Source: Paracoccus sp. (in: a-proteobacteria) (lineage in GTDB: Bacteria; Pseudomonadota; Alphaproteobacteria; Rhodobacterales; Rhodobacteraceae). From it: a stretch of DNA of 36,511 nt. Location: NCBI GenBank assembly GCA_030538425.1, contig JAUNTZ010000027.1, positions 1 to 36,511 on the forward strand, given 5' to 3'. The notes under the pieces are model-generated. The model was not told the DNA's origin, did not search any database, and saw only the letters and a program-made list of their open reading frames with translations. This document shows, in pieces, positions 14,534 to 36,511 of this stretch. Every line of letters starts with the position of its first letter. Positions within the stretch are counted from its first letter, which is position 1. Position numbers and translations under genes: made by a program.

Positions 14534-15934
14534 TCAGCCGCCGGCGCCCGGGGTGACGCCCAGGGTGTTGTCACGCGCGCCCCAGACCGGAATCTCAAGC
14601 GGCAGCACCCAGTCATTGCTGCGCAGCGCGCGCACTGGCACGGCAGTCAGGTCAACCGACGGGTCGATGAATTGTTGCATCGGGCGCCCGTTCAGCGACT
14701 TCCAGATATCGGCGCGCACGATCACATCGCGATGCCCCGCCGCCTGCCATTCTCGCTCAAGCGCCATCGCGAAGGCATGGATCAGGTCGGGGCGGGTCAG
14801 CATCTTGGAGCTCTGGCGGCGGGTCAGACGCGATTCCGGCTCGATCACCCAAATCTGGCTTTGATCGTCGGGGAGGAGGACGAAGAACACGCCCTCGGCC
14901 TCGCGGTCATAGATCCGCATCCGCCAGCTAAAGCGGTGGCCCTCGCCCGACCAGCGGATCTCGCTGTCGGGGAATATGACGCCGCGGATGGGCAGCACCA
15001 CCTGCACCGCCAGCCAGACCGCCATGCCCGCCAGCAAAATACCGGGCAGCCGGAAGGGCGCGGCACTGGGCGCAGGCATGGGCGGCAGGGTCTCAAACCG
15101 CGACAGCGCCCAGCGCAGCAAGCGCTGCGGCCAGTCGGGTGCGAAAAAGATCGTCGTGGCGGCAATCGTCATCCATGGAAAGATGCCGATGTTGAAATAG
15201 AACGCGTTCGAGACATGGAAGGCGGCATAGATAAAGAACACCCAGACACGCGTGCGCGACCACATCAGCAGCGGCGCGCCCAGCACATGCAGCGCGATCG
15301 TCCCCCAGCTGGCCAGCGGAAAGAACCAGTCATAGGCGAACAGAAACCCGAACGGTCCGGGATCAGCCGCGCCGCGCAGCCAGATCTCCAGCGGTTGACC
15401 GGCCAGCCAGTCGGGCGTCAGTTTCACCAGCCCCGCATAGATCAGCATGATCTCCATCTGCGCGCGCAGCATGAACGGCGCGGCATAGGGGATCGTCTTC
15501 GAGCGCAGACCCGGCCAGATCCGCGCATCCAGCGACAAGGCGCGATGGGCGGGCATGAAGCACAACAGCGCGCCGAACAGGATCACCAGATAAAAATGGT
15601 TCAGATATTCCGCCCGGTCGAGCAGGAAAAAATAGCTGAAAAGCAGGGTCAACGCGACAATCGCGACCCTGTAGAACAGCCCCAGCATGACACAGAAAGC
15701 CGCCAACCCCATCGCGCCCCATGCCAGATAGATCCACGGCTCGGGCAGCGGGCGCAGCCAGCCAAAGCCCGCATAGGGGAACAGGATCTGCGGCTCGACC
15801 CAATAGCGGAACACACGGTCATAGTGGAAAAACCGCCAGCAATCCCAGACCAAGAGCGCACCAAAGGCGATGCGGAACACGGCCAGCGACTGGCTGGAGA
15901 CGGGGTGAGACAGGCGGGCGACAATCGGGTTCAT
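14534..15934 (-). CDS. HTTM-domain (vitamin K-dependent carboxylase-like) membrane protein
   Basis: A 466-residue integral membrane protein of the HTTM/VKG-carboxylase-like family. Bacterial members are widespread, but their reaction is not established. The N-terminal two-thirds carries several transmembrane helices with family-like segments DRAEYLNHFYLVILF, MPAHRALSLDA and YAGLVKLTPDWLAG. The C-terminal soluble part has HRFSWRMRIYDRE and RPDLIHAFAMAL, which resemble the carboxylase-core and lumenal regions. The ATG at 15934 is preferred because the 83 upstream codons run back through the divergent DCC gene. It faces that gene across 57 bp, and the two families are often found together or fused, implying a joint function. 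Confidence 0.85.
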   Translation of the reverse strand: MNPIVARLSHPVSSQSLAVFRIAFGALLVWDCWRFFHYDRVFRYWVEPQILFPYAGFGWLRPLPEPWIYLAWGAMGLAAFCVMLGLFYRVAIVALTLLFSYFFLLDRAEYLNHFYLVILFGALLCFMPAHRALSLDARIWPGLRSKTIPYAAPFMLRAQMEIMLIYAGLVKLTPDWLAGQPLEIWLRGAADPGPFGFLFAYDWFFPLASWGTIALHVLGAPLLMWSRTRVWVFFIYAAFHVSNAFYFNIGIFPWMTIAATTIFFAPDWPQRLLRWALSRFETLPPMPAPSAAPFRLPGILLAGMAVWLAVQVVLPIRGVIFPDSEIRWSGEGHRFSWRMRIYDREAEGVFFVLLPDDQSQIWVIEPESRLTRRQSSKMLTRPDLIHAFAMALEREWQAAGHRDVIVRADIWKSLNGRPMQQFIDPSVDLTAVPVRALRSNDWVLPLEIPVWGARDNTLGVTPGAGG

Positions 15935-15957
15935 GGTGGCGGTGACCTCTGCTATGC

Positions 15958-15989
15958 CGGAATAACGAGCCACCCGCGGCGTTATTCCG
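15958..15989. promoter_or_regulatory. Perfect 10-bp inverted repeat between the HTTM and DCC genes
   Basis: CGGAATAACG (15958-15967) and CGTTATTCCG (15980-15989) are exact inverted copies with a 12-base GC-rich loop. The right arm ends two bases before the DCC ATG, so a hairpin in that mRNA would cover the initiation region, which also has no Shine-Dalgarno. It could instead be a dimeric operator serving both divergent genes. Confidence 0.7.
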
Positions 15990-15991
15990 AT

Positions 15992-16378
15992 ATGAGCCAG
16001 AAAACCGATCTGATCGAGATTGTCTATGACGGCGACTGCCCGTTTTGCGCCGATTTCACCCGCATGGTGGCCCTGCGCCGCGCGGGGCAGGTCGCGCTGA
16101 TCGACGCGCGCGGCGATGATCCGCGCGTGCAGGAGATCGGGGAGAGCTTTGACCTTGACGAAGGAATGCTTGTGCGCCGCCACGGGCAGATCTGGTTCGG
16201 CGCGGATGCGATGGCGCTATTGCTGATGCTGTCGCAGCCCGGCGGACGTTGGGGCGTGGCGAGGTGGCTGTTCGCCTCACCCCGGAGGGCGCGGCTGGCC
16301 TATCCGGTCTTGCGCGCGGGGCGTGGGATCGTGCTGCGACTGCTGGGGCGCGGCAAGATCGGCGACGGGCGCGGGTAG
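15992..16378 (+). CDS. DCC (DUF393) family thiol-disulfide oxidoreductase
   Basis: A 128-residue thioredoxin-fold protein of the DCC family. The N-terminal motif YDGDCPFC gives the redox pair C16 and C19, and the rest follows the family pattern (VALIDARGDD, then GADAMALLLML). The basic, hydrophobic C-terminus (residues ~95-128) could associate with the membrane. No signal peptide is seen. The start at 15992 gives the conserved beginning at normal spacing, and the longer frame antisense to the HTTM gene is spurious. There is no ribosome site: the arm of an inverted repeat occupies that position. Pairing with an HTTM protein is a recurring arrangement, but the redox substrate is unknown. Confidence 0.88.
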   Translation: MSQKTDLIEIVYDGDCPFCADFTRMVALRRAGQVALIDARGDDPRVQEIGESFDLDEGMLVRRHGQIWFGADAMALLLMLSQPGGRWGVARWLFASPRRARLAYPVLRAGRGIVLRLLGRGKIGDGRG

Positions 16379-27050: not shown

Positions 27051-27084
27051 TGCCCCTGTTTTATCCCCGTTTCGTGTTGCCGTG

Positions 27085-29223
27085 ATGAGTGACGCCCCCG
27101 ACACCGCGGCCCTACGCGCCAACACCGTTTTCGCCGTTCGCAATGACCGTCTGGGCGGTCGTCTGGGCGCGATGCTGAACGCAAGGCGGCTTGCCGACGA
27201 ACTGGGCGCCACCTTTCGCTTTACATGGTCCGCCCATGAGAACGTCAGCCCGGAATTGCAGCATCCTGAGCATCTGTTTTCCGAAGCCTTCCTTGAGCAG
27301 TATCGCGAGGTAGAGCTGGGCTTTGGTCAACTGCAAAACCAGATCCTCGCCATCGAGGCGCTTCCCGGCCATCTTCGCGACGAGGCCGCGTTGCGCGCCC
27401 ATGTCGCCCGCGAAAGCCTGCGCTGCACTGAGGCAATGCGCGCGATGGCCTTGCCATGGGAAGACCCCGCCATCGCGGCTGAGCGCGTGGCGCAGGCATT
27501 GGACAGCATCGGATTTCAGCCGGTGATCCTTGAGGCGATGCGCCAGATCCGCGCGCATCTGGGCTCGTCCGATCTGGTCGCCTATCACCTGCGGCGTGGT
27601 GATATCATCGACCCGGATGCGCGGCCCTCAAACGTGCTATGGCCCGCGAAATACATCCCCCGGGTCTATTATGAGGAACATATCGCCCGCGTTCTGGCGC
27701 AAGACCCCGACGCGCGGATCGTGATCTTCTCGGACGCCCCGCATGAGGTCGCGGCCTTCTGCGCGATGTCCGACCGGGTGATCTCGGCGGCTGATCTGTT
27801 GCAGGGCGCAGGCACCGAGATCCTGCAACGCGACTTTCTGGAGCTTTACACGATGTCGCTGTGCAAGCGGATCGTGGCGCCGGGGGCAAGCGCGTTTTCA
27901 TCCGTCGCGGCGATCCTTGGCAACAGCCGGATCATCCCGATCACCTCGGATCTCAGCGAGACCGAGCGCGAGACGGCGCTTGCGCGGATGACCGTCCAGC
28001 TTGACAGCGCGCCCGAAGCTTTTGCCGGTGACGCCGATCTGGGCCAGAACTTTCCCGAACTGCTGGCCTATCACAAAAGGCGCGGCACGCCGGATATTGC
28101 GCGCGGCATCGTGCAAAAACACCATGACCGGGGCTTTCAGCTTTCCTACATTTACGACCTTCTGGCCGCCGAACATTTCTGGGCAGGCGATACTGACGCG
28201 GCGCTTGGCATCGTGGAATCGCTGAAATCGCGGCCTATCCTGACCGATCTGGCCAATGCGCCGGTCTATGCCTGGGCCGGGCTTGCCGCGCTTCGCGATG
28301 GCAGGCTGCGCGAGGCGACCCGGCTGGCGCATATCGCGCAATGGTTGCAGCCGACGCTGCCCATCGCGCGCATCCTTGTCAGCAATGTGATCGGGCAGAC
28401 GCCGGACGACCGCAATCTTTATCCGGTGGACCGCGATTTCGTGCTGCAACAAATCCCGTTCAACGCGGTGCATCGCAATATTGCGCGCCGCCTTGCCGGC
28501 GCGCGGGACAGCCAGGACATACACCCGTTCCAGTTCATCCCCTTTGAAAGCGAGCTGCGCGACTGGCGACGGCTACAGACGCCGCGCTTTCCCTCGGCCT
28601 TCTGGAACCTGCCAAACCTGCGCAAAGTGCTTGGCTTTTTCCGTTCGTCTTACCGGAACAGGCTGGAGCAGCCGAATTTCCGCTCATTTCTGGGTCAGTG
28701 GCATATGCAGGCCGAAGAGCCGGAGACCGGCGCGGCGCTGATCCGCGAGGCGTTCGCGGAAGACCCGGACAACCCGCTGATCACCATCCGGCAGGCCCGG
28801 CTGACATGGGCCCAAGGCCGCAAGTCCCGTGCGATTGACCAATTCGCGCAGGCGCGCGCGCTGTCGGGCAACCAGATATGCTTTGCGGCGGAATACGGGC
28901 TTGCGCTGATGGCGCGGGGCAACAAGCAGGCGGCCATTGAGGTGTTCGAGGACATCGCCACGCAGGATCACGACATGATCGAGATCCACATCCAGACCGC
29001 CGATATGCTGCGCCGTCAGGCCCGCACGCGCGAACTTGCGCTGACCGTCGCCGCGCGGGTCGATGCAATGGTGCCGGGCGCGGTCAGAACCTCACAAATC
29101 CATCGCAAGGCGCTGCGCCAACTGGGCCGCGACGCCGAGGCCGATGCGATTGAGGCACAATTTCGCGAATGGAAACGCAACCCCGGCAAGTTCGCCTCAC
29201 GGATCGAGACGCCGCCGAAATAG
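27085..29223 (+). CDS. Fucosyltransferase-like glycosyltransferase with TPR-like C-terminus
   Basis: A 712-residue cytoplasmic protein with no signal or membrane segments. The N-terminal half (to ~300) looks like a GT11/GT23-type fucosyltransferase: an early NDRLGGRLGAMLNARRLADELG, the donor-binding motif HLRRGD (H168-D173), IFSDAP (214-219), and the MSLCKRIVAPGASAFSSVAAILGN segment (257-280). The C-terminal half (~330-710) is helical with TPR-like repeats (FLGQWHMQAEEPETGAALIR, then NKQAAIEVFEDIA). The ATG at 27085 is preferred to the GTG one codon earlier. It faces the manC-gmd-colC-colD genes, sharing a terminator with them. A transferase for GDP-fucose, or the closely related GDP-colitose, is inferred from the fold and context. 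Confidence 0.72.
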   Translation: MSDAPDTAALRANTVFAVRNDRLGGRLGAMLNARRLADELGATFRFTWSAHENVSPELQHPEHLFSEAFLEQYREVELGFGQLQNQILAIEALPGHLRDEAALRAHVARESLRCTEAMRAMALPWEDPAIAAERVAQALDSIGFQPVILEAMRQIRAHLGSSDLVAYHLRRGDIIDPDARPSNVLWPAKYIPRVYYEEHIARVLAQDPDARIVIFSDAPHEVAAFCAMSDRVISAADLLQGAGTEILQRDFLELYTMSLCKRIVAPGASAFSSVAAILGNSRIIPITSDLSETERETALARMTVQLDSAPEAFAGDADLGQNFPELLAYHKRRGTPDIARGIVQKHHDRGFQLSYIYDLLAAEHFWAGDTDAALGIVESLKSRPILTDLANAPVYAWAGLAALRDGRLREATRLAHIAQWLQPTLPIARILVSNVIGQTPDDRNLYPVDRDFVLQQIPFNAVHRNIARRLAGARDSQDIHPFQFIPFESELRDWRRLQTPRFPSAFWNLPNLRKVLGFFRSSYRNRLEQPNFRSFLGQWHMQAEEPETGAALIREAFAEDPDNPLITIRQARLTWAQGRKSRAIDQFAQARALSGNQICFAAEYGLALMARGNKQAAIEVFEDIATQDHDMIEIHIQTADMLRRQARTRELALTVAARVDAMVPGAVRTSQIHRKALRQLGRDAEADAIEAQFREWKRNPGKFASRIETPPK

Positions 29224-29228
29224 CAAAA

Positions 29229-29252
29229 AAGGCCGGGGCAACCCCCGGCCTT
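29229..29252. terminator. Bidirectional terminator between convergent glycan genes
   Basis: GGCCGGGG (29231-29238) and CCCCGGCC (29243-29250) form a perfect 8-bp stem with a CAAC loop, extended by AA/TT. On the minus strand it is followed by six T, a strong terminator for the manC-to-colD transcript. On the plus strand the T tract is interrupted, giving a weaker end for the glycosyltransferase. Confidence 0.88.
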
Positions 29253-29258
29253 CTGGTC

Positions 29259-30431
29259 TTAGGCGCGGAACGCCGCAACCGTGTCGATGGCTTCGGAAAA
29301 ATCGTAATGGTGGTTGCCGATGAAAAAGCCGTTGCGGTCGATATCGTCGGCATTGGTCATCTCGCCATGCAGAGAATGATCCATCAGGTCCAGCACCGGG
29401 TTCTTGGTGAAATTGCCGCTGACGATGGGCCGCGTCTCAAACCCCAGCTCGTTCAGGCGGGTAATCGCCTCTTTACGGGTCAGGCCCGCATCGGGGCGCA
29501 TCACAAGCGCAAAGCCGAACCAGCTTGACGCGCCGATCTCGCGTTGGATGCGGAACACCGGATGATTTGCCATCGCCTCAGTAAAGCGGCGCCCGTTGGC
29601 CTGCCGCCCATCGATCAGCGAGGGGAGTTTCTTCAACTGCTCACGGCCAAGCGCGCCCGACATCTCCAGCGGGCGAAGGTTGTAACCCGGCAGGACAAAG
29701 CGAAAGCTTTCCTCGAAGGGATCATCGCTTTTCTCTCCGGTCAGCGTGTTGAACTTGGGCAGGTTCCGCGTCCAGCCATGCGCGCGCAACGCCAGCAGAA
29801 TATGATACAGCTCTTCGTCATCGGTGACGACAAGCCCGCCCTCCATCGTCGAGATGTGATGCGAGAAGAAGCTCGAAAACGTGCCCATCACGCCAAAAGT
29901 GCCGGCCTGCTTGCCGTCAAAACTCGCGCCCATGGATTCGCAGTTATCCTCGATCACGACAATATCGCGACCGCCGATGATCTGCCGGATACGGTCGAAA
30001 TCATTGGGGTTGCCCAGCAGGTTCACGACCATGATCGCGCGGGTGCGGTCGGTGATCGCGGCCTCCAGCGCATCCAGATCGTAGTTGAGCGTATGCGCGT
30101 CGATATCCACGAACTTCATATGCAGCCCGTATTGGTGCAGCGGATAGAAGGTGGTTGACCAGGACACCGCAGGCACGATCACCTCGTCGCCGGGGTTCAG
30201 GCGCAGCCTGTCGTTCTTGCTATAGCGCAGCGCGGCGACCATGGCGAGGTTCGCGGAGGAACCGGAATTGACCATCACCGCATATTTGCTGCCGACCCAT
30301 GCGGCGAATTCCTGTTCAAAGGCAGCAACTTCTGGCCCCATCGAATACTGGTCCGAGGCGATCACACGGTAAAGCGCATCAAGCTCGGACTGGTCCCAGG
30401 ATGAGGTGGCAAGAGGGAAACGGGCACTCAT
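29259..30431 (-). CDS. colD: ColD-like PLP-dependent GDP-4-keto-6-deoxymannose 3-dehydratase
   Basis: A 390-residue DegT/DnrJ/EryC1-fold PLP protein. In ordinary sugar aminotransferases of this fold a lysine binds PLP in the pattern FSFxxxKxxxxGEGG. Here the aligned segment is SSFFSHHISTMEGG, with histidine (H191) in that place. That substitution marks the 3-dehydratases ColD and RfbH/E1, which remove the 3-hydroxyl instead of transaminating. Length fits ColD (~388). The PLP phosphate and ring region (NSGSSANLAMVAAL, IEDNCESMGA) is normal. Lying after gmd, the expected substrate is GDP-4-keto-6-deoxy-D-mannose, giving GDP-4-keto-3,6-dideoxy-D-mannose. The start at 30431 overlaps the upstream gene stop (ATGA). 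The CDP-sugar enzyme RfbH is the alternative, less likely in a GDP-sugar operon. Confidence 0.85.
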   Translation of the reverse strand: MSARFPLATSSWDQSELDALYRVIASDQYSMGPEVAAFEQEFAAWVGSKYAVMVNSGSSANLAMVAALRYSKNDRLRLNPGDEVIVPAVSWSTTFYPLHQYGLHMKFVDIDAHTLNYDLDALEAAITDRTRAIMVVNLLGNPNDFDRIRQIIGGRDIVVIEDNCESMGASFDGKQAGTFGVMGTFSSFFSHHISTMEGGLVVTDDEELYHILLALRAHGWTRNLPKFNTLTGEKSDDPFEESFRFVLPGYNLRPLEMSGALGREQLKKLPSLIDGRQANGRRFTEAMANHPVFRIQREIGASSWFGFALVMRPDAGLTRKEAITRLNELGFETRPIVSGNFTKNPVLDLMDHSLHGEMTNADDIDRNGFFIGNHHYDFSEAIDTVAAFRA

Positions 30432-31372
30432 TTCGACTGTTCCTTGTAAAAGGCATAGGTGGCAAGGATGCCGTCGCGCAGACTGGTTTGCGGCGCCCAT
30501 CCCCATGCAGTTTGCTGGCTGACATCCAGCAGCTTGCGTTTCATCCCGACCGGGCGCGACAGGTCATGCACAAAGCGCCCGTCCCAGCCCACGACATCCG
30601 CGACGATCTGGTAATATTTGTTGATCGTGTGATCGTGGCCCAGACCGATATTCAGCGAGACCGGTAGCGCCGCCGGATCGGCAAGCGCGCGGATGATCGC
30701 GCAGGCCAGATCGCCCGCATACATGAACTCGCGCCGCGCGGTGCCGTCGCCCCAGATCTCGACCTCGGGCTCGCCATTCTCGCGGGCCAGATGGACCTTG
30801 TGGATGATCGCCGGGATGAGGTGGCTGTGTTTTGGGTCGAACTTGTCCCATTTGCCGTAAAGGTTGCACGGGATCAGCGTCTTGTAATTCAGCGCCGGGT
30901 TCTCGCGCATGGCAAATTCGCACAGCCGCATGCTCACGATCTTGGCAAGCGCATAGCCTTCATTCGTGGGTTCCAGCTCGCCGGTCAGCACCTTGTCCTC
31001 GGACAGCCCGTCACCAAGCGCGCGCGGATACATGCAGGACGAGGACAGGTTGATCAGCGTGCCGATCCCGGCATCAAGACAGCCCTGCACGATATTCAGG
31101 CCCATCTCGGTATTGGCGGCCAGAAAGCGCACCGGTTCGGCCATATTGGCCTGAATACCACCGACGACGCCCGCGCAATGGACCACCGCATCGGGGCGGT
31201 GCCGTTCCAGATAGGCACGGGTCGCGGCGCGGTCGCGCAGGTCCAGTTCACCGCTGGACGGTGTCAGCGCCTGCCAGTTCGCGGCCAGATCGGGATGCGC
31301 CAGCAGGTTCTGCCCGACCATCCCGCCCGCGCCGGTAATCAACAGGCGCGGCTTGTCAGAATTGAACGACAT
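30428..31372 (-). CDS. colC: GDP-sugar epimerase/reductase, ColC- or Fcl-type
   Basis: An extended SDR enzyme of the GDP-L-fucose synthase family (314 aa). It shows the Rossmann motif ITGAGGMVGQNL, the catalytic serine region NLSSSCMYP, and YALAK (YxxxK), followed by IPCNLYGKWDKFDPKHSHLIPAIIHK and WGDGTARREFMYAGD. Fcl performs C3/C5 epimerisation and C4 reduction to GDP-fucose. ColC performs C5 epimerisation and C4 reduction to GDP-colitose. The two are hard to tell apart by motif. The adjacent, translationally overlapping ColD-like dehydratase favours ColC. gmd lies nine bases upstream. The symbol is therefore provisional and fcl is the alternative. Confidence 0.75.
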   Translation of the reverse strand: MSFNSDKPRLLITGAGGMVGQNLLAHPDLAANWQALTPSSGELDLRDRAATRAYLERHRPDAVVHCAGVVGGIQANMAEPVRFLAANTEMGLNIVQGCLDAGIGTLINLSSSCMYPRALGDGLSEDKVLTGELEPTNEGYALAKIVSMRLCEFAMRENPALNYKTLIPCNLYGKWDKFDPKHSHLIPAIIHKVHLARENGEPEVEIWGDGTARREFMYAGDLACAIIRALADPAALPVSLNIGLGHDHTINKYYQIVADVVGWDGRFVHDLSRPVGMKRKLLDVSQQTAWGWAPQTSLRDGILATYAFYKEQSK

Positions 31373-31381
31373 GACCCGCGC

Positions 31382-32503
31382 TCAGCCCGCTTCGGTCGAG
31401 ACCGGCACATCCATGCCATGCTCTTTGAGCAGGGCGTGGCGGCGGGCGACCTTGAGGTCTTCGGCGACCATCTCGGCGCACATCTCGCGGGCGGTGATCT
31501 GCGGCTCCCATCCCAGCTTTTCTTTGGCCTTGGCCGGGTTGCCCAGCAGGGTTTCCACCTCAGCCGGGCGGAAATAGCGCGGGTCGATCCGCATCACCAC
31601 ATCGCCCTGTTTCAGCGCCGGGGCCTTTTCGCCCTGAACCGAAACCACGGTTGCAATCTCGTTCACGCCCTCACCCGAAAATTCCAGCGTTATGCCAAGT
31701 TCCTCGGCGGTCCAGGTGATGAACTCACGCACGGAATATTGCTTGCCGGTGGCGATGACAAAATCATCGGGCTTATCGCCTTGCAGCATCATCCACTGCA
31801 TCCGCACATAGTCCTTCGCATGGCCCCAGTCGCGCAGCGCGTCGATATTGCCCATATAGAGGCAGGGCTCCTGCCCAAGCGCGATATTGGCCAGACCACG
31901 GGTGATCTTGCGGGTCACAAAGGTCTCACCTCGGCGCGGGGATTCATGGTTGAACAGGATGCCGTTGCAGGCATACATTCCGTAAGCCTCACGATAGTTC
32001 ACGGTGATCCAATAGGCATACATCTTGGCCACCGCATAGGGTGAGCGCGGATGGAACGGGGTCGTTTCGGTCTGCGGGATCTCCTGCACCAGACCGTAAA
32101 GTTCCGAAGTCGAGGCCTGATAGAACCGCGTATGCTTCTCCAGCCCAAGAAAGCGGATCGCCTCAAGCAGGCGCAACGTGCCGATCGCATCCACATCGGC
32201 GGTGTATTCGGGCGCCTCGAAGGACACGGCAACGTGGGATTGCGCGCCGAGGTTGTAAACCTCGTCGGGGCGGATCTCGGCGATCAGGCGGGTCAGGTTC
32301 GAGGTATCAGACAGGTCGCCATAATGCAGGCGAAAGCGCGGGTGGCCGACATGCTCATCCTGAAAGATATGGTCAACGCGCTGCGTGTTGAACAGCGAGG
32401 CGCGGCGCTTGATGCCGTGAACCTCATAGCCCTTGTCCAGAAGGAACTCTGCCAGATACGAACCGTCCTGCCCGGTCACGCCGGTGATCAGCGCCTTTTT
32501 CAT
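31382..32503 (-). CDS. gmd: GDP-mannose 4,6-dehydratase
   Basis: NADP-dependent dehydratase that turns GDP-D-mannose into GDP-4-keto-6-deoxy-D-mannose, the branch point to fucose, colitose, rhamnose and perosamine. The 373-residue protein has all family parts: [29 protein letters not shown], the serine/threonine-containing [20 protein letters not shown] (YxxxK), [20 protein letters not shown] and [13 protein letters not shown]-like [17 protein letters not shown]. An AAGGA ribosome site precedes the ATG. It lies 61 bp downstream of manC in the same direction and shares its likely transcript. Confidence 0.97.
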
Positions 32504-32564
32504 GTATCAGTCCTTTACCTTTGCGATGCCGACCTTGCGGCAAACTCATTCAAACAACAGCGGA

Positions 32565-34013
32565 TCAGCCGCGCGCGCCCTGACCACGGGAATAGATATC
32601 CTCATAGCGGATGATGTCATCCTCGCCCAGATAGCTGCCGGTCTGCACCTCGATCAGCACCATCGGCACCTTGCCCGGATTCTCCATCCGGTGAACGGCG
32701 CCAAGCGGGATATAGACCGACTGGTTTTCGGTCACCAGTTGCACATTGTCATCGACGGTCACCTTGGCGGTGCCTTCGACCACGATCCAATGTTCGGAAC
32801 GGTGGTGGTGGCTTTGCAGGCTCAGCGCCGCGCCGGGATGGACGACAATCCGCTTGACCTGAAAGCGCGCGCCCAGAACCAGCGTCTCATACCAGCCCCA
32901 GGGGCGGTAATCGCGGGGCAGCGTTTCGGCCTGGCGGGCATCATTGGCCTTGAGGATCTCGACCGCCTTTTTCACGTCCTGCGCCCGGTCTTTGGGCGCA
33001 ACCAGAACGGCATCCTGCATGGCAATCGCAATGATATTGTCCAGACCGATGCCAACCAGAACCTGCCCGTCGGATTCCGCTCGCAAGAGTGAATCGGTGC
33101 AATCCACCGCCTGCGCCTGACCCGACAAGACAACGCCATTGTCATCGGGGCCCTGTTCGCGCCAGACCGCATCCCAGCCGCCCAGATCGGACCAACCGGC
33201 GGAAAACGGCACAACGGCAAGGTTCTGCGCCTTTTCCATCACCGCATAATCGACTGAGATCGATTCCGCCTGCGCGAACGACTGGGGATCAAGCCGCAGA
33301 AACCCCAGATCGGCCTTTGCGCCCGCGACCGAGGCCGCAACCGGCGCCACCAGATCGGGCGCGTGGGTGCGGAACGCCGCGACCATATCGGCGGCGCGGG
33401 CCAGAAAGATCCCCGCATTCCACAAGAACCGCCCCGAGGCGATCATCTGCGCCGCCGCCTCAGCATCGGGCTTTTCGACAAAGCGTACCAGATCGGTCGC
33501 CGCGCCGCTGTCATCGGGGCGGGCGGGCAGCTCCAGATAACCATAACCCGTCTCCGCCCGGTCGGGGGTGATGCCGAAGGTCACCAGCTTGCCCTGCGCG
33601 ACCGCCTCAAGCCCCCGCGCGACCGCCGCGCGAAACGCCGCCGCATCCGGTATCGCGTGGTCCGAGGGCGCGATCAGCATCACCGATTCGGCATCCTGCT
33701 GTTCCAGATAAAGCGCTGCGGCCAGAACGGCAGGGGCGGTGTTGCGCGGCTCGGGCTCGATCATCACAACGCCCGCGTCGATGCCCACGGCGCTGAGCTG
33801 TTCCGCCACGATAAAGCGGAAATCGGCGCCGGTGACCACCATCGGCGCGGCAAAACCCTCAGCCGCAAAGCGCTGCGCCGCCGCTTGAAACAGCGTCGCA
33901 TCGCCCATCAGGGACGCGAATTGCTTGGGGTAAGACTTGCGCGACAACGGCCATAGCCGCGTTCCCGAACCGCCCGAGAGGATCACCGGGGTAACTTGCG
34001 ACAATGCGGACAT
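32565..34013 (-). CDS. manC: Mannose-1-phosphate guanylyltransferase / mannose-6-phosphate isomerase
   Basis: Bifunctional type II PMI-GMP, supplying GDP-mannose from fructose-6-phosphate with a phosphomannomutase encoded elsewhere. The 482-residue protein starts its nucleotidyltransferase domain with VILSGGSGTRLWPLSRKSYPKQF and includes FVEKPDAEAA and WNAGIFL. The C-terminal cupin isomerase domain (~345-482) has YRPWGWYE, QVKRIVVHPGA, QSHHHRSEHWIVVEG and IPLGAVHRMENPG. The ATG at 34013 is chosen; a TTG eight codons upstream is weaker. It is the promoter-proximal gene of manC-gmd-colC-colD, divergent from the decarboxylase. No manB is present in the window. Confidence 0.96.
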   Translation of the reverse strand: MSALSQVTPVILSGGSGTRLWPLSRKSYPKQFASLMGDATLFQAAAQRFAAEGFAAPMVVTGADFRFIVAEQLSAVGIDAGVVMIEPEPRNTAPAVLAAALYLEQQDAESVMLIAPSDHAIPDAAAFRAAVARGLEAVAQGKLVTFGITPDRAETGYGYLELPARPDDSGAATDLVRFVEKPDAEAAAQMIASGRFLWNAGIFLARAADMVAAFRTHAPDLVAPVAASVAGAKADLGFLRLDPQSFAQAESISVDYAVMEKAQNLAVVPFSAGWSDLGGWDAVWREQGPDDNGVVLSGQAQAVDCTDSLLRAESDGQVLVGIGLDNIIAIAMQDAVLVAPKDRAQDVKKAVEILKANDARQAETLPRDYRPWGWYETLVLGARFQVKRIVVHPGAALSLQSHHHRSEHWIVVEGTAKVTVDDNVQLVTENQSVYIPLGAVHRMENPGKVPMVLIEVQTGSYLGEDDIIRYEDIYSRGQGARG

Positions 34014-34070: not shown

Positions 34071-34214
34071 TGAAGTGTTTGTATTGCCTTGCGACCTTGT
34101 TTCGGACTCCTTGGCTGCGAAAGATGCTTTTCAGTTCGCGCCAACTTATGATAGCCCGCGCTGGAGTATTCGCCTCTGTTTGTCGTCTTAGCCAGTTCGC
34201 AGAAAGTGCCGCAA

Positions 34215-35510
34215 ATGTCTGACCGTGACCACGACCTGCTTGCGACTTCGGTTGCTGCTCTGGATCTCGACCGTCTGGAAACGCCGTTCTACGTTTACGC
34301 CTCGGATCTGCTGGCCGGGCGGGCCGCGCGGCTTGTGGCCTGTTTCGACGGGCTGTTCACCCCCAGCTATGCGATCAAGTCGAACCCGAATCTTGAGGTT
34401 CTGCGCATCGTCATGTCGCAGCTGAACCATATTGACGCGTCATCGGCGTTCGAGGTCGAACGCGCCCTTGCCATCGGTCTTGCACCGGAACAGATCAGCT
34501 GGTCAGGCCCCGGCAAGCGTGAGGCTGAGCTGCGCCGTCTGGCCGGGCGCGGCATCAATATCGTGGTTGAGTCGCTCGATGAGGTGGAGATGCTGGCCTC
34601 GGTCTGCGCCGCGCAAGGGGTGCGGCAGGACGTGCTTTTGCGCATCAACCCCGACCATGTGCCCAAAGGCTTCGGTGCCAGCATGTCGGGCAAGCCAAGC
34701 CAGTTCGGCATTGATGAGCCGCAATTGCCCGACGCGATCCGCGCGATCGAGGCGCAGGACGCGCTGCGGCTGACCGGTTTTCACGCCTATACCGGCTCGA
34801 TGTGCCTGTCGCCCGAACCGATTGCCGAGAATGTGGCGAACCTCTGCGCCATCTTTGCCCGCGCCGCCGATCTGGCCAGCAACCCGCCCGAAAAGCTGAT
34901 CTTTGGCGCGGGTTTCGGCATCTCGCTGCATGAGGGGCAAGAGCCGCTGGACATCGACCGCGTGCGCGAACTGGTCGCGCCTCATATCGACGCGCTTGCG
35001 GGCAATCCGCGTCTGGCGGGGGCGGAACGCTTGCTGGAGATCGGTCGCTGGATCAGCGGGCCCTCGGGCGCGCTTGTCGCCCGCGTCTTGTCGGCCAAGA
35101 CCAGTCGCGGCCTGCCGATTGCGGTCTGTGATGCCGGGTTCAACAACCATCTTGCCGCCTGCGGGATGATGGGTTCGGTGTTTCAGAAGAACTATCCGTT
35201 CAGGGTGCTGCGCCATCAGGGCGATGATGCCCCGGTCGATCAGATGCTGGCCGGGCCGCTTTGCACCTCGATTGACCAGCTGGCGCGAAAGATTGCCCTG
35301 CCGCTTCTGGCGAAAGGCGACGTTCTCGCGGTGCTGATGTCGGGCGCATACGGCCTGACCGCCAGCCCGACGCGCTTCATCAGCCACCCCGAGCCTGCTG
35401 AATATGTTCTAGAGAACGGCCAGCTGCGCGACGTGTCCGAAAGTGCGCTGAACCATCCCGGCAGCATCGGCGCTGCGCGAAGGGAGAGCAGGCATGACGC
35501 ATCCGCTTGA
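34215..35510 (+). CDS. PLP-dependent decarboxylase, exosortase/EPS-associated type
   Basis: A 431-residue fold-type III PLP enzyme related to diaminopimelate and ornithine decarboxylases. The PLP lysine is K55 (PSYAIKSNPNLEVL). A glycine-rich phosphate-binding region (FGAGFGISLHEGQE) follows, then CDAGFNNHLA, the active-site cysteine segment GPLCTSIDQLARK, and a C-terminal SGAYGLTASPTRFISHP. The last two segments are typical of the decarboxylases found beside an acyl-CoA ligase in exosortase/exopolysaccharide loci. The substrate is unknown. The ATG at 34215 is preferred to a GTG three codons earlier. The stop overlaps the downstream ligase by 17 bp. It diverges from manC, suggesting a shared surface-glycan locus. 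Confidence 0.82.
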   Translation: MSDRDHDLLATSVAALDLDRLETPFYVYASDLLAGRAARLVACFDGLFTPSYAIKSNPNLEVLRIVMSQLNHIDASSAFEVERALAIGLAPEQISWSGPGKREAELRRLAGRGINIVVESLDEVEMLASVCAAQGVRQDVLLRINPDHVPKGFGASMSGKPSQFGIDEPQLPDAIRAIEAQDALRLTGFHAYTGSMCLSPEPIAENVANLCAIFARAADLASNPPEKLIFGAGFGISLHEGQEPLDIDRVRELVAPHIDALAGNPRLAGAERLLEIGRWISGPSGALVARVLSAKTSRGLPIAVCDAGFNNHLAACGMMGSVFQKNYPFRVLRHQGDDAPVDQMLAGPLCTSIDQLARKIALPLLAKGDVLAVLMSGAYGLTASPTRFISHPEPAEYVLENGQLRDVSESALNHPGSIGAARRESRHDASA

Positions 35511-36511
35511 CGCCTTTCTGTCGCTGGCCCAAGCCGCGCCCGATGCGCCGATTGGGGCGCAGGGCGACACCGTGTGGACGCGGGCGCGCTTGCTGACTGA
35601 GGCGGGCGCCTTGGCGAGCGCCTTGGCAGCGCGCGGCATTGGTGAAGCGCCGGGTCAGCGCGTCATGCTGGCCCTGCCCAACAGCCCGCGCATGATGGCG
35701 CTGTTGCCCGCGATCTGGTCGCTTGGGGCAATCCCGATGTTCCTGTCGGCCAAGGCGACAGAGGCTCAACGCGCCGGGGTGACCGGCTTTTACAACCCCA
35801 ATCTGGTGATCGATCAGGACCTGCTGGATGCGCTTAGCGATGCGCCGGGCGCGCTTGGGCCGCAGCGCCCCGATGCGCAGGACGATGCCTCGGTGGTGTT
35901 CACATCGGGCTCGACCGGCCTGCCCAAGGGCGTGGTGCAAAAGGGCGCGACCCTGACCGACGGCGCGCTTCGGGTGGCGCGGACGCTGGGCTATGGCCCG
36001 TCAGAACGCATCCTTGTGCCGATCCCCTTTGCCCATGATTACGGCTGGGGTCAGATGCTGTCAGCCTTTGTCGGCGGTCATATGCTGATCCTGCCCGAGC
36101 GTGAGATTCTGGCCGATATCGCGCTTGCCATCAACGCGCATCGCCCCACCGTCATGGCCGGGGTGCCCTCGCTTTATTCCGGTCTGCTGTTCGGGATCTC
36201 GGGCTTTGAAAAGGCCGATACGTCCAGCCTGCGCCTGCTGACCTCGACCGGCTCGGCCTTTTCGCCGCGCCTGATTGCCGCGCTTGAGGAACGGATTCCG
36301 CAGGCGCAGGTCTTGCGCAATTACGGCCTGACCGAAACCTATCGCGGCTGCTGCCTGCATCCGCGCGACGCGGCTGCGCATCCGGGTTCCGTCGGACGCC
36401 CGATCGAGGGGGTCGAGATCCGCATTGTCGATCCGCAAGGCGCGGTTCTGCCGCCGGGGTCCGAGGGTGAGATCGTCCATCTGGGCGCGGGCGTGTTCGA
36501 CCGTTACCTTG
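35494..36511 (+). CDS. AMP-forming acyl/aryl ligase, incomplete at the window end
   Basis: The first 339 codons of an ANL-superfamily adenylating enzyme, cut off at the window edge. It activates a carboxylate as acyl-AMP and transfers it to CoA or a carrier-protein thiol. Visible motifs are the phosphate loop FTSGSTGLPKGVV (residues ~140-152), PFAHDYGWGQML, GVPSLYSGLLFG, STGSAFSPRLI and NYGLTETYRGC (adenine/carboxylate pocket). The ATG at 35494 has a GGGAGAG ribosome site and overlaps the decarboxylase end by 17 bp, so the pair is coupled. Decarboxylase-plus-ligase pairs are known from exosortase-associated loci; a carrier protein might be expected downstream, outside the window. Confidence 0.85.
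   Translation, partial: MTHPLDAFLSLAQAAPDAPIGAQGDTVWTRARLLTEAGALASALAARGIGEAPGQRVMLALPNSPRMMALLPAIWSLGAIPMFLSAKATEAQRAGVTGFYNPNLVIDQDLLDALSDAPGALGPQRPDAQDDASVVFTSGSTGLPKGVVQKGATLTDGALRVARTLGYGPSERILVPIPFAHDYGWGQMLSAFVGGHMLILPEREILADIALAINAHRPTVMAGVPSLYSGLLFGISGFEKADTSSLRLLTSTGSAFSPRLIAALEERIPQAQVLRNYGLTETYRGCCLHPRDAAAHPGSVGRPIEGVEIRIVDPQGAVLPPGSEGEIVHLGAGVFDRYL

Follow-up and report, generated by a model that had tools for sequence, protein, structure and literature searches.

A predicted GDP-L-colitose operon and a candidate partner glycosyltransferase in Paracoccus

In a 36,511-nucleotide stretch of Paracoccus sp. DNA (contig JAUNTZ010000027.1 of assembly GCA_030538425.1; "the window" means this whole stretch), four intact open reading frames (ORFs) form a minus-strand operon, manC-gmd-colC-colD, at positions 29259-34013, and we predict that it makes guanosine diphosphate (GDP)-L-colitose. 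The manC gene (32565..34013) encodes a bifunctional mannose-1-phosphate guanylyltransferase/mannose-6-phosphate isomerase for the supply of GDP-mannose (TIGR01479, 589.7 bits; cut-off 373), and gmd (31382..32503) a GDP-mannose 4,6-dehydratase leading to GDP-4-keto-6-deoxymannose (TIGR01472, 578 bits; cut-off 415). These are followed by colC (30428..31372), encoding a predicted GDP-L-colitose synthase (C5 epimerase/C4 reductase), and by colD (29259..30431), whose DegT-fold product is a predicted GDP-4-keto-6-deoxymannose 3-dehydratase. An earlier note on this DNA had described a minus-strand operon of this order with overlapping or short junctions, and this description holds: manC and gmd are separated by 61 bases, gmd and colC by 9 bases, and colC and colD overlap by 4 bases. 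A likely intrinsic terminator closing the operon lies at 29227..29254 on the minus strand (a stem of 12 pairs, 8 of them GC, with a T-rich tail); it is a consensus match, the longest hairpin among 7 terminator-like sites in the region, where shuffled sequences lead one to expect 4.8. On the plus strand, and convergent with colD, a gene at 27082..29223 ends 35 bases from it and encodes a divergent NodZ/GT11-like glycosyltransferase domain (residues 1 to about 310) with a tetratricopeptide repeat (TPR) tail, the predicted colitosyltransferase. The G+C content of colD and gmd (59-60%) is slightly under the window mean of 64.5%. The genome holding the window is 2.69 Mb long and 87% complete, and it carries two phosphoglucomutase/phosphomannomutase-family genes away from the operon.

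The same four enzymes are encoded by the colitose genes of Escherichia coli O111 (gmd, manC, rfbK, colC and colD; our locus L082, NC_013364). Since the identities to the O111 proteins are 61% for ColD, 50% for ColC, 75% for Gmd and 41% for ManC, the match of the operon is not due to chance, and the 4-base overlap of colC and colD is found in both. The O111 genes, however, sit in a wzx/wzy O-antigen cluster that also includes rfbK (phosphomannomutase) and wbdI (GDP-sugar hydrolase), while the window holds a four-gene operon with the phosphomannomutase-family genes elsewhere and no wzx or wzy seen in it.

We compared the DegT-fold protein with ColD, RfbH and perosamine synthases; against four distinct ColD sequences in the Protein Data Bank (PDB) it scored 526-531 bits (531 to 2gms), against RfbH, the nearest non-ColD enzyme, 197-201 bits, and against perosamine synthases about 120 bits. 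Residue 191 of the protein is a histidine, lying in SSFFSHHISTMEGG and corresponding to H188 of E. coli ColD. PDB ColD sequences altered at the catalytic histidine (to N in 3b8x, to K in 2r0t and 3gr9) align exactly to this position, which confirms the earlier claim that histidine stands in place of the lysine binding pyridoxal 5'-phosphate (PLP), the mark of perosamine synthase and other Lys-type DegT aminotransferases. In an alignment of 115 non-identical rows, in which the window protein is counted and entered once more with a longer start, the position is His in 108 rows, 7 of them with the RfbH motif AHHIT, and Lys in 7. The protein has a single cysteine, Cys164, and is therefore without the [2Fe-2S] iron-sulfur (Fe-S) cysteine set. 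These features agree with those of E. coli ColD (2gms/3gr9), which is homologous over the full length and likewise combines the catalytic histidine with a lack of Fe-S cysteines; unlike it, the window ColD is alphaproteobacterial and is known here from its sequence. A passage of PMC8987622 lists as ColD traits His for Lys, pyridoxamine 5'-phosphate (PMP) used with glutamate, and no Fe-S cluster.

A quick tree of 53 rows drawn from that alignment, with long outgroup branches flagged, gave a starred ColD clade of 29 type I rows (the window included), 10 type II rows (the more divergent form treated below) and E. coli O111 ColD, the last falling within the starred type I branch as the neighbour of two betaproteobacterial rows (support 84). 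This clade was separate from six RfbH-like rows, and the Lys-type aminotransferases, among them the O157 perosamine synthase row, also fell apart from ColD. No second ColD was found in the rest of the 87% complete genome. We thus predict from these comparisons that the DegT-fold protein is ColD.

The reductase was placed in the same manner against ColC and Fcl references. On the Fcl model NF047922 the window protein reached 283 bits, below the cut-off of 500, and E. coli O111 ColC scored similarly (311). In a quick tree of 46 rows, in which O111 ColC has a long branch, 33 ColC rows, including the window and O111, were split from 13 Fcl rows by a branch with a Shimodaira-Hasegawa-like approximate likelihood ratio test (SH-aLRT) support of 100. 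Defining a separating column by a commonest letter present in at least 84% of the Fcl rows and at least 93% of the ColC rows, we found 14 such columns, and the window protein bears the ColC letter at all 14. The residues S111, C113, Y140, K144 and H184, which we take to be the catalytic residues of epimerase and reductase, are kept in the window protein and their S, C, Y, K and H in all 46 rows; C113 and H184 presumably match the Fcl epimerase pair C109/H179. Fcl/WcaG of E. coli K-12 (L098) thus shares with the window protein the short-chain dehydrogenase/reductase family and these five residues, but stands in a separate clade and differs at the 14 columns. No closer Fcl was found in the 87% complete genome, where the sole other reductase match was 25% identical and of partial length. 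These sequence features indicate that the reductase is ColC and not Fcl, with a predicted role as GDP-L-colitose synthase.

In the proposed pathway, ManC would make GDP-mannose and Gmd would convert it to GDP-4-keto-6-deoxymannose. ColD, as a PMP enzyme with His191 in place of the catalytic lysine, would then strip the C3 hydroxyl with glutamate as the nitrogen source and no Fe-S reductase, after which ColC would invert C5 and reduce C4 with NADPH (reduced nicotinamide adenine dinucleotide phosphate) to give GDP-L-colitose. The convergent transferase would most likely pass the colitose to an acceptor. We give the prediction that the operon makes GDP-L-colitose a probability of about 0.92. A GDP-L-colitose-type pathway was also what the earlier note had proposed, and the ColD and ColC trees, His191, the ColC columns and the ManC and Gmd scores above curated cut-offs all argue for it.

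It seems improbable that the operon makes a different 3,6-dideoxy sugar, either through a ColC acting without C5 epimerisation or from a GDP-heptose substrate, as for the 3,6-dideoxyheptoses of Campylobacter, since the presence of ManC and Gmd suggests a route from GDP-mannose, all four enzymes have counterparts in the O111 cluster, and the pair C113/H184, presumed to act in epimerisation, is kept in every row of the reductase tree. The analogy that favours such a route is that a C3 dehydratase acts in 3,6-dideoxyheptose synthesis in C. jejuni, according to a part of PMC10440746.

Slightly less probable still is a GDP-L-fucose operon with the DegT protein acting independently as a sugar aminotransferase, for example toward GDP-perosamine. 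Such an enzyme would be expected to carry the PLP lysine that is replaced here by histidine, and the protein falls in the ColD clade rather than with the O157 perosamine synthase or other Lys-type rows. Although ColC and Fcl are homologous and have the tested catalytic residues in common, and although fucose and aminotransferase names stand in the public records of relatives, the reductase belongs to the ColC clade, its score is far under the Fcl cut-off, which 13 of 125 Paracoccus genomes exceed, and the 4-base overlap couples colC to colD. That the DegT enzyme acts on cytidine diphosphate (CDP) sugars like RfbH/E1 (toward paratose, abequose or tyvelose) is hardly credible, given its lack of Fe-S cysteines, its separation from the RfbH-like rows and the GDP-sugar enzymes encoded by the other three genes, even though RfbH has the same fold and the same His-for-Lys change and its model (NF011936) is the best NCBIfam match at 271 bits, under the cut-off of 423, a model on which O111 ColD itself scores 261. 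The fucose, perosamine and CDP-sugar readings were dropped on His191, the single cysteine, the two trees and the separating columns.

We then asked how the pathway is distributed. A contig scan yielded 377 encoding stretches, of which the best 80 were kept as loci; gmd, colC and colD occur together in 78 of these 80; L069 has colD only, and L072 lacks gmd. The gmd-colC-colD trio is present in P. denitrificans (L009). The pathway is common in the genus, with colD in 41 of 125 Paracoccus genomes: type I colD (75-84% identity) is found in 21, the window's own included, and type II colD (51-57%) in 20. A ColC-type reductase, scoring 253-310 bits with the Fcl model, accompanies colD in all 41 genomes; a 42nd (G134) also has such a reductase, with only a fragment of colD where its contig ends. 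An Fcl-type reductase (446 bits or more) is present in 17 of the 125 genomes, 13 above the cut-off of 500 and 4 below it (450-486 bits). No genome holds both colD and an Fcl-type reductase (chance p 0.0006, relatedness ignored). The four pathway states change 33 times on a CarB tree, and the pathway is therefore patchy in the genus. This tree covers 121 of the 125 genomes, leaving out G125 and G017 (no CarB match) and G132 and G146 (partial matches).

The type II genes make up a second, divergent ColD/Gmd/ColC set in those 20 genomes (L120-L128, L139, L140, L154), whose Gmd is 62-65% identical to that of the window and thus more distant from it than E. coli O111 Gmd. Three loci checked for gene order (L139, L140, L154) read colD-gmd-manC-colC. 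Colitose, or a GDP-3,6-dideoxy sugar related to it, may be the product of this set. In seven mostly betaproteobacterial loci (L043, L045, L047, L054, L057, L061, L075), ColD is accompanied about 2 kb downstream by an RfbH-like CDP-sugar 3-dehydratase: two distinct 3,6-dideoxy sugar routes per cluster. Another RfbH-like protein (L151:3826-5049, genome G032) has SHVIN instead of AHHIT around the histidine and reaches 316 bits with the RfbH model, whose cut-off is 423; twelve Paracoccus genomes, G032 among them, have matches scoring like it (33-36% identity to ColD). Thirteen plasmid records carry colD, five from Paracoccus, four from Azospirillum and one each from Phaeobacter, Parasedimentitalea, Sulfitobacter and Chelatococcus. 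The ColD relatives on the four Azospirillum plasmids (H30-H33) are about 50% identical and generically annotated.

The partner gene at 27082..29223 was assessed by profile, by distribution and by position. Its N-terminal domain lies below the Pfam gathering cut-offs (GT11, 11.6 against 23.9 bits; NodZ, matched by 4 of 19 relatives with E 7e-5 at best). A profile of the 19 relatives searched against the PDB found NodZ (2hhc, E 2.1e-5) as its sole match up to E 1, which is weak but significant, and the HxRxG and SAF regions align with those of NodZ. The protein thus resembles NodZ and GT11 enzymes, to which we take E. coli O55 WbgN to belong, but differs from them in scoring below the Pfam cut-offs and in bearing a TPR tail. 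A cleaned alignment (A3) of the family gave the same PDB, Pfam and tree results as the early alignment (A1), in which several rows had over-long starts (L090 the worst) and which was used for the genus scan.

In that scan the transferase family was found in 54 of the 125 genomes: 40 of 41 with colD, 11 of 17 with an Fcl-type reductase, 0 of 1 with the colD fragment, and 3 of 66 with no pathway (G083, G109 and a short match in G116). The single colD genome without a match, G125, is 71% complete. The association with a pathway (Fisher p 1e-22 for pathway against none, relatedness ignored) persists on the CarB tree. For colD, with the Fcl genomes and G134 dropped (104 rows), there were 13 independent contrasts, about 12 in the same direction and 0 opposite (p about 0.0005); for any pathway, of 19 contrasts about 14 favoured the link, 0.2 opposed it and 5 showed no difference. 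In all 11 Fcl genomes having the transferase it lies 0-33 bases behind fcl on the same strand, and the same family may be coupled to GDP-fucose operons in sister Paracoccus species. In a genome of another genus of the family Rhodobacteraceae (G267, L290) it is convergent beside colC-colD-manC-gmd, the match ends being about 115 bases apart, and in G100 and G101 the N-domain match lies 1.3 kb from colC, also convergent. A passage of PMC12723683 describes WbgN as a colitosyltransferase taking both GDP-colitose and GDP-fucose, and one family serving both donors is therefore plausible.

Several observations weigh against a colitose operon served by this transferase. Of 39 other colD genomes having the transferase, 37 carry it at least 20 kb away or on another contig; in 15 type I genomes it is 20-49 kb from the colitose genes and in the remainder farther off or on another contig (distances are counted from the N-domain match, not the gene end, and are limited by contig breaks). 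Among 147 family genomes outside the genus, 5 have colD, 5 the transferase and 1 both. In its own tree the window transferase groups with that of the Fcl genome G030 (support 96/93, long branches), apart from the main group of colD genomes, and its present donor is therefore less sure than the pathway. As to the glycan, no wzx, wzy or other polysaccharide gene was seen among the 28 window proteins scanned with Pfam, apart from the parts listed here (2 of the proteins match nothing), and no Wzy_C/O-antigen ligase match was found in the 87% complete genome, a weak piece of evidence because the missing 13% could hold the gene.

The tree of the transferase contradicts our expectation that the window protein would cluster with its counterparts from other colD genomes, and we dropped a transferase-colD link across the wider family, as only one of the five colD genomes outside the genus has the transferase. 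Around the transferase in 4 of the 5 outside-genus genomes that have it, the 17 kb covered contained neither a close gmd nor a close fcl; a weak, 27% identical Gmd-like match occurs in L289. In P. seriniphilus the gmd-colC-colD trio and the transferase are about 160 kb apart, each among unrelated genes and the transferase annotated as hypothetical, a layout which speaks against a classical O-unit cluster there, the final glycan not being proven by layout.

Could the adjacency to colD be mere chance and the transferase unrelated to colitose? Its convergent position outside the operon, its distance from colD in most colD genomes and the scant association outside the genus would fit, yet we regard this as unlikely, since the co-occurrence across the genus holds after tree control, the gene directly follows fcl in every Fcl genome that has it, the convergent arrangement recurs in another genus, and distant relatives stand beside colD or gmd in two further loci. 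In L058 the relative directly follows colD, and in L020 it immediately precedes gmd; the L058 protein (L058:10227-12023) joins an F5/8 type C (discoidin) domain at its N-terminus to a NodZ-like transferase. Six others of the 80 loci (L023, L042, L051, L060, L063, L066) carry genes that score above the GT11 cut-off. On balance, the TPR transferase is the best candidate for the colitosyltransferase, and probably a correct one.

On the far side of manC, and divergent from it, the plus strand carries a type III PLP decarboxylase gene of exosortase-A-associated-like type (34206..35510; TIGR03099, 323 bits, below the cut-off of 478) and an adenosine monophosphate (AMP)-forming acyl ligase gene cut by the contig end (35494..36511; AMP-binding PF00501, E 1e-61; TIGR03098, 166 bits, below the cut-off of 592), both possible members of the same glycan locus. 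Such a pair occurs in 11 of the 80 loci, all Paracoccus, about 3-6 kb behind colD, while in the window (34206-36511) it stands beside manC; the 11 loci are L004, L006-L013, L015 and L037. In L160 (18155-21201) an acyl carrier protein accompanies the pair. The ligases and decarboxylases of other loci are only 27-44% identical to those of the window. By analogy with BtrJ/BtrI/BtrK, the two enzymes might load an amino acid on a carrier and decarboxylate it, decorating a glycan. Farther away in the window, a minus-strand gene (14534-16183) encodes an HTTM domain with a vitamin K-dependent gamma-carboxylase lumenal domain, and is overlapped by an opposite-strand reading frame with a DCC1-like end.

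The earlier note had also expected that automatic annotation would name these genes as GDP-fucose synthesis plus a sugar aminotransferase, and this is indeed so in the records of relatives. In 10 of the 13 plasmid records colD is called a "DegT/DnrJ/EryC1/StrS family aminotransferase", and in the other 3 no gene is listed at that place; 5 of the 13, and both annotated regions examined, give the name "GDP-L-fucose synthase" next to colD. No ColD or ColC model was among the NCBIfam matches listed for the window proteins or for the E. coli O111 originals, and the TPR transferase is labelled a hypothetical protein in two public records. Routine annotation thus conceals colitose genes under two misleading names.

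Colitose has reportedly been obtained from Herbaspirillum frisingense, to judge by the title of a paper. A sentence in PMC8987622 names it with related sugars from E. coli, Yersinia pseudotuberculosis, Salmonella and Vibrio, and parts of other papers place it in V. cholerae O139 and Aeromonas trota (PMC3210612) and in Pseudoalteromonas (PMC4052302), or mention annotated ColC and ColD in a verrucomicrobial endosymbiont (PMC8204192). As a sugar-pathway scan that included colitose covered 12,939 genomes (according to a part of PMC7725333), that the pathway occurs across many phyla is not in itself new. In the open-licence literature searched, we found no published colitose in Paracoccus, Rhodobacter, the Roseobacter group, Azospirillum or alphaproteobacteria. 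The colitose pathway itself is already known; the host lineage and the partner transferase are the new part.

A stand-alone GDP-colitose operon with one dedicated NodZ/GT11-like TPR transferase could point to non-O-antigen colitosylation of a single acceptor, perhaps a protein or the lipopolysaccharide core, with sister species swapping fucose for colitose on that acceptor through an exchange of donor modules; we put this forward tentatively, as somewhat less probable than its opposite. The prediction would place a rare surface sugar pathway in a common genus of soil and marine habitats, to which P. denitrificans belongs, and it supplies a named candidate for the colitose transferase. The genus-level partnership with this transferase and the possible exchange of fucose and colitose modules are what most deserves follow-up.

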